Positions 10,639-63,380 of a stretch of 64,000 nt of DNA are shown here, piece by piece. A program made the translations under genes and the position numbers. Each line of letters opens with the position of its first letter. Position 1 is the stretch's first letter. The stretch spans positions 186,001 to 250,000 of the forward strand of contig JAHDXR010000005.1 of the NCBI GenBank assembly GCA_023384105.1, read 5' to 3'. The notes below the pieces were generated by a model. It made no database searches and was not told the DNA's origin. It saw only the letters and a list, made by a program, of their open reading frames with translations. Origin of the DNA: Hyphomonadaceae bacterium. GTDB lineage: Bacteria; Pseudomonadota; Alphaproteobacteria; Caulobacterales; Aquidulcibacteraceae.

Positions 10639-10766
10639 TGGACCGCCGGCGTCCCGCCGGCCCGCTCGAACCTACGAAGGCGCGAGCGAACGGCTCCGCC
10701 GCGCATGCAACGCGGAGCGCTCTCTTTTCAGAAGTACGCACATGCCGGCGTCCCGCCGGCGGTCCA
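10639..10766. repeat. Palindromic element A, 128-bp two-unit copy
   Basis: The element begins TGGACCGCCGGCG and ends CGCCGGCGGTCCA, so its ends are inverted copies, with the CCCGCCGGC core repeated inside each end. The spacer contains a GCATGCAACG segment also seen in element C. It fills the space between two converging genes and ends three bases before the stop codon of the GntR gene, so it may also act as a bidirectional transcription stop, though there is no T-run. Confidence 0.75.
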
Positions 10767-20818: not shown

Positions 20819-20878
20819 TGGACCGCCGGCGTCCCGCCGGCATGCGCCGTCATGAGAAGCGCGGCGCCGGCGGGTCCA
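20819..20878. repeat. Palindromic element A, 60-bp copy
   Basis: It begins TGGACCGCCGGCGTCCCGCC and ends GCGGCGCCGGCGGGTCCA, with slightly decayed inverted ends. It fills the 69-bp gap between the convergent edd gene and the membrane glycosyltransferase. Confidence 0.7.
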
Positions 20879-23560: not shown

Positions 23561-23796
23561 CACCCCCTCCCCGCGAGGGGAGGGGCAGGGGGCGGCGCGA
23601 AGCTCCGCGCTCTCGGAACGATGCGCCGATATGGACCGCCGGCGTCCTCGCCGGCATGCGCCAGATCGAACAAGCGCCGGCGTCTGCGGGGAGCGGCGGC
23701 GCCATGCCGGCGAGGACGCCGGCGGTCCATAATGTGCGCACATTCAAGCGTCGAGTTTCACCCCACCCCCTGCCCCCTCCCCTCGCGGGGAGGAGG
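23561..23796. repeat. Element B inverted repeat with an element A nested inside
   Basis: The outer arms are ACCCCCTCCCCGCGAGGGGA... at 23561-23592 and the inverse (CCCCTCCCCTCGCGGGGAGG...) near 23764-23796, about 30 bp each and nearly perfect. The element A copy at 23632-23729 lies inside the spacer. Together they fill the whole aguA-aguB gap. Confidence 0.75.
23632..23729. repeat. Palindromic element A, 98-bp copy with perfect terminal inverted repeats
   Basis: The ends TGGACCGCCGGCGTCCTCGC... and the exact inverse ...GCGAGGACGCCGGCGGTCCA match over at least 26 bp on each side, flanked by AT on both sides. The spacer is about 45 bp. This is the cleanest two-unit copy in the window. Confidence 0.8.
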
Positions 23797-39060: not shown

Positions 39061-39089
39061 TGGAGCGCCGGCATCCCGCCGGCGCTCCA
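39061..39089. repeat. Palindromic element A variant, 29 bp, after clpB
   Basis: A perfect palindrome apart from its centre, TGGAGCGCCGGC...GCCGGCGCTCCA, differing from the usual copy by one base in each arm (AGC for ACC) with the change compensated on the other side. It follows the clpB stop by 58 bp and could act as a transcript-end hairpin. Confidence 0.65.
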
Positions 39090-47744: not shown

Positions 47745-47773
47745 TGGACCGCCGGCGTCCCGCCGGCGGTCCA
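47745..47773. repeat. Palindromic element A, 29-bp single unit
   Basis: The canonical short copy: TGGACCGCCGGCG, a CCC centre, and CGCCGGCGGTCCA, with the palindrome extended three more bases on each side (CTA/TAG, 47742-47776). It lies between converging genes, 15 bp past the stop codon of the minus-strand gene at 47791. Confidence 0.8.
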
Positions 47774-52774: not shown

Positions 52775-52800
52775 TGGACCGCCGGCGCCCTCGCCGGCAT
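52775..52800. repeat. Half copy of palindromic element A
   Basis: TGGACCGCCGGCGCCCTCGC followed by CGGCAT is one arm of element A; the next bases (TTTCATCCTGA) resemble the end of element C. It lies 21 bp after the CapD-like stop. The remaining gap to the ABC permease gene shows nothing further. Confidence 0.55.
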
Positions 52801-61778: not shown

Positions 61779-63380
61779 ATGGGTGTCGACCTCGTCGACA
61801 TCACCGCCAAGCGGGCGGCGCTGACGCCGCAGCGCATCGCGTTCGAGGACGCGCTCACCGGGCGCACGATGACCTACGCCGAACTCGATGATCGCGCCGC
61901 GCGCGCGGCGGCGGCGCTGGCGTCGCTCGGCGTCGAGCGCGAAGACCGCGTCGCCATCCTCTGCCGCAACCGTGTCGAGTTCTTCGAAATCCTGTTCGCC
62001 TGCGCCAAGCTCGGCGCGATCCTCGCGCCGTTGAACTGGCGCGCGCCGGCGGCGGAGCTGAAGCCATTGATGGCGGACTGCACGCCGAAAGCGCTGATCT
62101 ACGGCGCGGAGGACGCCGCCTCCGCGCATGCGCTTGCACGTGAAGGGCTGGCGCTCGTGGCGCTGGATCCTGGACCGCCGGCGTCCTCGCCGGCATGCGC
62201 CGTTTCAACTCCAAGCGACGTTGCAGCTGGAAACGTCATCGCCGGCGAGGACGCCGGCGGTCCAAGTGCGTATGCGCGTTTGCTTGCTGACGCTTCGCCG
62301 TTGCGCACCGAGCGCCGTTGGCGCGGCGAGGCGATTTGGTCGCTGAGCTATACGTCGGGCACCACCGGCGCGCCGAAAGGCGTGATCCAGACCTATCAGA
62401 TGGCCGCCGTGAACGCGTTTCACGTTGCGCAGGCGTTCGGCGTCAATGGCGGCGACACCACGCTCAACTTCCTGCCGCTGTTCCACACCGCCGGCATCCA
62501 GCTGGTCACGCTGCCGACGCTGATCGCGGGCGGCACGGTGATCGTGACGCCCGGGTTCGACGAGGCGCGCGCGCTTGAGCTGATGCCGCGGCTCGACGTG
62601 TTCTTCAGCGTGCCCGCCGTCTATCAGCAGTTGGCGCTGCATCCTGCGTTCGAGCGCGCCGATCTTTCGCGCGTGCGTTCGTGGGGCTGCGGCGGGGCGC
62701 CGTTGTCCGATGTGCTGGTGGAGCGTTTCGCCGCGAAGGGCGTGCGCGTCTGCAACGGCTACGGCATGACGGAAACCGGCCCTACCGCATTCGTCGCCGC
62801 GCCGGAAGATGCGCTGACGAAGATCGGCTCCGTCGGCAAGCCGCAGATGCTGCTCGATGTCCGCATCGTCGACGTGAACGGCGAAGACGTCGCCGAGGGC
62901 GAGAGCGGCGAGATCTGGATGCGCGGCGCGGGGCTCACGCCCGGCTACTGGAAGCGGCCGGAGGAGACGGCGAAGGCGTTCACGCCGGACGGCTGGCTCA
63001 GAAGCGGCGACATCGGCCGGCGCGACGCCGACGGCTGCTATTACGTCGCCGGCCGGATCAAGGAGATGTACATTTCGGGCGGCGAGAACGTGTATCCGGC
63101 CGAAGTCGAGAACGCGCTCGCGCGCCATCCGGCCGTGCTGGAGGCGGCTGTGCTCGGCGTAGCGGACGAGACATGGGGCGAGGTCGGGCACGCCTTCGTG
63201 CTGATGCGCCCCGGCGCGCAGCCGATCTCGGCGGCCGATCTGATTCAGTTTTGCCGCGGCAATCTCGCCGGGTATAAAACCCCGCGCCACGTGACCTTCG
63301 TGGACGAGTTCCCGCGCACCGCCGCGGGCAAGATCAGGAAGCATTTGCTCGCGCCGGCGCCGCACGCGCCGTCGCGCTGA
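61779..63380 (+). CDS. AMP-dependent acyl-CoA ligase with an in-frame repeat insertion
   Basis: The 533-residue enzyme activates a carboxylic acid to its CoA thioester (FadD-like). The AMP-binding motif YTSGTTGAPKG, NGYGMTETGPTAF, GWLRSGDIG and the C-terminal catalytic lysine in RTAAGKIRKH are all intact. About residues 132-163 (from PGPPASSPACAV to AGEDAGGPS) are encoded by a 94-bp palindromic element; sequence on both sides (LALVALD, AYARLLADASPL) reads like one continuous family segment. The enzyme likely stays active because the insert is in a loop of the N-terminal domain. Confidence 0.92.
   Translation: MGVDLVDITAKRAALTPQRIAFEDALTGRTMTYAELDDRAARAAAALASLGVEREDRVAILCRNRVEFFEILFACAKLGAILAPLNWRAPAAELKPLMADCTPKALIYGAEDAASAHALAREGLALVALDPGPPASSPACAVSTPSDVAAGNVIAGEDAGGPSAYARLLADASPLRTERRWRGEAIWSLSYTSGTTGAPKGVIQTYQMAAVNAFHVAQAFGVNGGDTTLNFLPLFHTAGIQLVTLPTLIAGGTVIVTPGFDEARALELMPRLDVFFSVPAVYQQLALHPAFERADLSRVRSWGCGGAPLSDVLVERFAAKGVRVCNGYGMTETGPTAFVAAPEDALTKIGSVGKPQMLLDVRIVDVNGEDVAEGESGEIWMRGAGLTPGYWKRPEETAKAFTPDGWLRSGDIGRRDADGCYYVAGRIKEMYISGGENVYPAEVENALARHPAVLEAAVLGVADETWGEVGHAFVLMRPGAQPISAADLIQFCRGNLAGYKTPRHVTFVDEFPRTAAGKIRKHLLAPAPHAPSR
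62171..62264 (+). repeat. Palindromic element A, 94-bp copy inside the acyl-CoA ligase gene
   Basis: The copy begins TGGACCGCCGGCGTCCTCGC and ends GCGAGGACGCCGGCGGTCCA, the same arms as the 23632-23729 copy, with an inner CGTTTC/GAAACG pair in the spacer. It lies within the ligase gene with no stop codon or frame break; with two flanking bases it accounts for 32 codons. Confidence 0.8.

Follow-up and report, generated by a model that had tools for sequence, protein, structure and literature searches.

The element and its host gene

The window, the whole stretch of 64,000 nucleotides that was analysed, contains an acyl-CoA ligase gene (AMP-binding enzyme, 533 aa) on the forward strand at 61779-63380, in which both PF00501 and PF13193 were detected and for which the best NCBIfam match was NF004837 (432.7 bits, below the cut-off of 476). 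Within its codons lies a REPIN-like element of 94 nt (62171-62264), built of two inverted REP units separated by a 46-nt spacer. The left unit (62171-62194, forward strand) has the head TGGACC, the stem GCCGGCG / CGCCGGC and the loop TCCT, and the right unit (62241-62264, reverse strand) is its perfect reverse complement, so that the outer arms are 24 nt long and perfect; 68 of the 94 positions match the element's own reverse complement. Folded as single-stranded DNA with 2 nt added on each side, the element reached -44.4 kcal/mol, against -20.6 +/- 2.4 kcal/mol for 200 shuffles (z -9.8), none of which folded as well. It is stop-free in the ligase frame, which stays open throughout the 94 nt. 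The original prediction of a 94-bp palindrome inside a complete acyl-CoA ligase frame was thus borne out by the arms, the fold and the frame.

Intergenic copies of the same repeat family were located at 23632-23729, identical to the ligase element over its first 31 and last 24 nt, and at 10639-10766, identical over the first 16 and last 13 nt, in which the spacer is longer and the hairpin loop differs. The arms, predicted to be the same in all three copies, are therefore exactly so for 23632-23729 and only approximately so for 10639-10766. A 29-nt intergenic palindrome of the same arms lies at 47745-47773 (C4:233745-233773), and further arms or short palindromes of the family were seen at 1927-1942, 20819-20834, 39061-39089 and 52775-52790. 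A search of the whole window with Rfam at gathering scores returned zero matches.

The ligase protein

Alignment, codon view and frame position placed the extra segment at codons 62169-62264 of the forward strand (residues 131-162, 32 aa). As had been predicted, about 32 residues are missing from homologues: residues ~131-162 were absent from all seven distant homologues aligned (48-56% identity), and among these seven none was found with the same residues on non-palindromic DNA. In an AlphaFold model (29 sequences, mean pLDDT 89.8) the insert falls between a strand (125-128) and a helix (164-171), its pLDDT falling under 50 for residues 136-152 and 156-158 and ranging over 38-54 when taken per ten residues; the 32 extra residues are modelled as a low-confidence loop that is probably disordered. 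The model otherwise resembles an ordinary adenylate-forming ligase, with feruloyl-CoA synthetase giving the lowest E-values and MenE a TM-score by target of up to 0.92. Downstream of the insert, dN was 0.073 and dS 0.69 against the G018 orthologue, and dN/dS was ~0.1 against both G018 and G008, an average that takes in time before the insertion; these rates indicate that this part of the ligase is under purifying selection. The further claim that a mobile palindrome was inserted in frame into an otherwise intact-looking ligase is consistent with these findings, and the protein is presumably made and active.

The repeat family and its distribution

The arm core TGGANCGCCGGCGNCC, searched with up to one mismatch, occurs in the genome 207 times forward and 198 times reverse, compared with 7 and 7 for a reversed-pattern control; 405 arms against 14 exclude chance as the source of the palindrome. 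The consensus of the 172 arms of 86 strict pairs (see below) is Y-W-Y-GGASCGCCGGCG, with a variable loop. A stricter unit has 226 exact copies in the 3.67-Mb Hyphomonadaceae-type genome of the window and, among 289 genomes drawn from the class, a draw holding no other member of the genus, was found in that genome alone. Exact arms were then counted in 61 genomes (30 of the genus and 31 of other genera): within the genus 16 of 30 genomes have at least 10, 13 have 1-9 and one has none, the highest numbers being 256 (G000), 155 (G012), 123 (G003) and 112 (G007), while 6 of the 31 genomes of other genera have 1-2, the level of the control, which also gave 1-2 in a few genomes. In the genomes scanned, abundance of the family is confined to its genus.

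Pairs were searched over 1.664 Mb (45% of the genome), a set that replaced an earlier pass over 864 kb (46 pairs, 97 single arms). Allowing three mismatches summed over neighbouring units, 98 were in the orientation '+-', against 6 '-+', 8 '++' and 10 '--', with many single units besides. The 98 inverted pairs fell to 86 when strict pairs (up to two mismatches) were required; the reversed sequence gave 2 and 0, respectively. A loose search for single units (two mismatches) returned 525 against 258 in the reversed sequence, for which reason single units in genes were left uncounted and only pairs were used. A MITE with target-site duplication would be bounded by a short direct repeat of its target. 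Strict pairs are flanked by TA on both sides in 32 of 86 cases, TA being itself palindromic, and by CT/AG, inverted rather than direct, in 7 of 86.

Association with a RAYT transposase gene

The genome of the window has a single Y1_Tnp gene (PF01797), classified as RAYT by NCBIfam NF047646 (98.4 bits, cut-off 80), whose aligned part is C17:418701-419243 on the reverse strand; an element of the repeat (C17:419257-419348) lies 13 nt upstream of its start. RAYT matches (E <= 1e-15) were obtained in 18 of the 61 genomes, 14 among the 30 of the genus and 4 among the 31 of other genera. Of the 30 RAYT loci, 18 have a flanking inverted repeat of at least 15 nt, which in 13 is the present arm, standing on both sides as the longest such repeat; five have one of 10-12 nt, and in seven the script found none of at least 10 nt, though some of these show arm-like words by eye on one or both sides. 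At L196, L198, L202, L206 and L215 the arms are separated by 1-17 nt from the ends of the RAYT gene as aligned, and at L203, L221 and L223 different stems follow the same GGASC head.

Arms are more numerous in the 14 genomes of the genus with a RAYT match (median 49) than in the 16 without (median 6.5; Mann-Whitney p = 0.004, uncorrected for kinship). Arms were also counted in G021 (52), G028 (45, genome 57% complete), G018 (29) and G011 (20), which gave no RAYT match at E <= 1e-15, while G004, G010 and G029 have a match yet only 2-3 arms. RAYT is the putative mover of the element; the REP-bearing genomes without a match and the RAYT loci with a short flanking repeat or none speak against this role.

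Genomic placement and pairs inside genes

Placement was determined with gene calls from a simple, purpose-made caller. Of the 98 pairs, 82 are intergenic, 41 of them in convergent, 39 in co-directional and 2 in divergent gaps, even though divergent gaps outnumber each other type (240 of 805 gaps of at least 60 nt). The distance of intergenic pairs to gene 3' ends has a median of 14 nt, 100 of 121 distances being at or below 40 nt. The remaining 16 pairs are inside frames, against 84.5 expected at random; in the strict set the number is 11 of 86, with 0 pairs in the control. By length, the in-frame share of strict pairs is 0 of 14 at 25-35 nt, 9 of 18 at 36-80 nt and 2 of 54 at 81-230 nt, the latter two classes differing with a Fisher p of 2e-5 (the 14 pairs of 25-35 nt left out, and class limits set after inspection of the data). 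With only 2 of 54 such pairs in frame, a full-length copy like that in the ligase is an unusual case.

The 11 strict in-gene pairs are read in all three frames (5, 4 and 2). Their hosts, as identified by family search, are the isoleucine-tRNA ligase IleRS (two inserts), CarB, RsmA/KsgA, TrmD, MnmE, MtaB (insert close to the C-terminus and past the matched domain), the acyl-CoA ligase, a UbiH-family hydroxylase (searched with 319 of its 422 residues), a YhhN protein (insert preceding the matched domain) and a 218-aa frame that has no family match and may not be a gene. In-gene pairs at C20:3221, C22:16945, C23:75354 and C4:175829 were dropped as chance-like, each having exactly three mismatches; C10:112968 in MutL, with the same number, was left out of the strict set and may be real. 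A codon score on 300-base flanks was discarded because it missed the ligase itself.

The ligase loop across the genus

Ligase orthologues (E <= 1e-100) were retrieved from 19 other genomes of the genus, loci being assigned to genomes by identical sequence. The loop is plain in 11 of 19 (G004, G008, G009, G014, G015, G016, G020, G021, G024, G027 and G029). Three of 19 have intact in-frame REP pairs of their own in the same loop (G007, 40 nt; G023, 61 nt; G011, 94 nt), all flanked by TA and TA at the same codon, whereas the G000 element is flanked by CC/AG and sits at a different codon. Possible remnants were noted in another three, as right-arm words in G001 and G028 and possibly as a short remnant in G018, and two carry another palindrome or its remnant, G005 (CTCCCCCG hairpins, by eye) and G019, which likely retains a remnant of the G005 type. 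No close empty site for the ligase element was found. Breaks of frame were seen in the G015 ligase (L089, near residue 37) and in the G023 ligase (L087, G023:C1:198694 onwards, CP096134), which in tblastn occupies three frames with breaks near residues 434 and 502; both may reflect sequencing indels.

These loops could descend from a single ancient insertion early in the genus, mostly lost or eroded and refreshed by gene conversion with other REP copies as the source, or from several insertions. The loop was mapped on a tree of CarB, RsmA and TrmD from 27 genomes, pruned to 17 tips, with G001 coded as present and G018, G005 and G019 as absent. Parsimony required 4 changes, while a single-gain history required 1 gain and 8 losses. 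The pair of G007 stands in a clade of support 100 in which the loop is plain at all four other tips, and that of G023 in a clade of support 98 in which the other two bear the different palindrome or its remnant; these placements, like the differing codon and flanks of the G000 element, argue for several insertions. The common codon of the three TA-flanked pairs and the remnant-like words at this loop are nevertheless what one old insertion would leave, the deep nodes of the tree have support of only 17-67, and CarB illustrates that inserts are inherited, one segment being common to G000, G025, G022 and probably G002 (decayed in G022 and G002). On this evidence a single ancient origin is rather unlikely.

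Two further explanations bear on the same loop. The element might be kept by selection, with the mRNA hairpin or the proline- and alanine-rich peptide functional in the ligase. Its 94-nt hairpin is still nearly perfect despite the rarity of long pairs in genes noted above, which would fit such a role; but the loop holds other elements, another palindrome family or nothing at all depending on the species, the strict in-gene pairs use all three frames, and remnants decay, which together make a selected function improbable. The assembler might instead have joined a repeat into the ligase gene, and the G011 orthologue (L086), which has an N run and a duplicated coding stretch at its palindrome in this loop, is a sign that hairpins of this kind disturb assembly. 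Such an artefact is very improbable for the window, where the frame is maintained across the whole element, and REP pairs occupy the same loop in separate assemblies of related species, one of which (G023) is a single contig.

Inserts in other household genes

REP segments recur in other household genes of the genus. They were found in RsmA of G000, G003, G005, G007, G015 and G021, most remaining genomes being without one and G019 and G023 having another palindrome instead; in MnmE of G000, G001, G003, G007, G011 and G015; and in TrmD of G000 and G012, with a decayed form in G007. Some copies are thus out of frame with the rest of their gene, which counts against a general rule of in-frame insertion: in RsmA of G015 and G023 the part downstream of the palindrome lies in another frame, and these two assemblies are frameshifted in further genes too (ligase, IleRS or MnmE). 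IleRS has two REP segments in G000 and one or more in G022; at the site of the second segment of G000 the other palindrome family is present in G003 and G021, and in a third loop it is present in G005, G018 and G022.

The MnmE alleles with REP segments (L385-L390) have the flanks SKLDL and TTGEGL in common between genomes that are apart on the tree, as if exchanged by recombination. Further repeats that resemble palindromes, with SPLAGEG...NAPHPPAPSPQGGGG as a frequent reading, are translated in frame at or near loops used by REP pairs, in L085 (G005 ligase), L257 and L266 (RsmA of G019 and G023), L254 (CarB of G036) and IleRS of G003, G005, G018, G021 and G022.

Proposed origin of the insert

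The ligase segment is most readily explained (probability about 0.85) as a REPIN-like, non-autonomous element of a RAYT-helped family that landed in frame and was kept in a tolerant loop. The inverted pair of REP hairpins would spread with the help of RAYT, and one copy would have landed in the codons of a loop that joins a beta-strand to a helix and precedes the TSGTTG motif of the ligase. Since the net insertion would have kept the reading frame and the element is GC-rich and stop-free in that frame, it would be translated into ~32 extra, probably disordered residues. The copy would have been retained because the loop tolerates many lengths, and in-frame copies may later decay through in-frame deletions. 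We infer that the insert is nearly neutral for the ligase. Mobile DNA appears to be lengthening proteins of related bacteria in the same way.

A broader reading is put forward tentatively. The RAYT-linked family and a second, unrelated palindrome family may together be a recurrent agent of in-frame insertion throughout the genus, with the loops of the ligase, RsmA and IleRS hit repeatedly in different species and the ligases of three species hit at one and the same TA within a Tyr codon. Insertion would then have a site preference, and loop length in these proteins would evolve by transposition; this possibility is, on balance, doubtful.

Comparison with known systems

The original prediction likened the element to the palindromes (RPE) of Rickettsia. 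The parallel holds for insertion in frame, as RPE are described in the available parts of PMC10969869 and PMC2229807 as palindromes in frame in conserved genes that tolerate them. By published description, RPE differ in being 105-150 bp long, RAYT goes unmentioned in those parts of the two accounts, and nearly half of the first reported RPE were in genes, compared with 11 of 86 strict pairs here. The closer kind is REPIN/REP-RAYT, because the arms of the element also flank RAYT genes of the genus.

With the REPIN/REP-RAYT system (GTAG REP superfamily) the present family shares inverted pairs of short hairpins that occur in many copies, their location at gene 3' ends and in the gaps of convergent genes, a RAYT gene flanked by the same hairpins (here 13 of 30 loci) and intragenic units, which in the published cases covered by the available part of PMC3733652 mostly code for 20-30 aa. 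In the available text of PMC3686654 a GT[A/G]G tetranucleotide 5' of the palindrome defines the REP head, and that of PMC8266576 has the REP transposase cutting REP at CT. The present family lacks the GT[A/G]G head, GTAG or GTGG occurring at -8 to +2 in 1 of 172 arms, and its conserved head is YGGASCG, unlike that of the classical REPs.

CGTC REPs, as treated in the same part of PMC3733652, are likewise found mostly in Alphaproteobacteria and mostly as head-to-head dimers, with a tail ending in CCA and known intragenic units, and they include RPE-4 and RPE-6. The criteria applied to that class were a CGTC (or TGTC, CCTC) head, a stem with AT pairs at its base and no link to a transposase. The present arm consensus is without a CGTC head and without AT pairs at the stem base, and the family is RAYT-linked, whereas CGTC REPs are reported there to be without association with transposase genes.

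The accessible portion of Di Nocera 2013 (PMC3733652) describes intragenic REPs of the GTAG and CGTC types in several species, over half of which code for 20-30 aa, and an insertion at roughly one position in two recB genes of Xanthomonas; in-frame REPs being thus in print outside Rickettsia, the phenomenon is less new than first thought. A search of the open-licence literature returned nothing specific on in-frame REPs in Alphaproteobacteria or on repeats in Terricaulis or Vitreimonas, nor did it turn up the present family, a RAYT-linked YGGASCG head in this lineage, or repeated use of the same loops across a genus; in the searchable text of a 2025 REP survey (PMC12306157) the words 'intragenic' and 'RAYT' are absent. 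In-frame REP insertion is therefore already known as a kind, and the family and its recurrent use of loops are apparently undescribed in the literature searched.

The family provides a case, complete with a candidate transposase, of mobile DNA extending the household proteins IleRS, CarB, TrmD, RsmA and MnmE. As the ligase loop is plain, occupied, filled by another family or decayed among relatives, the fate of such insertions, so far best known from Rickettsia, can be tested by comparison of strains and by assaying the enzyme in forms that have or lack the segment. Where alignments of proteins from this genus show loop insertions, these should be read with caution, since they can be mobile DNA and not domains.
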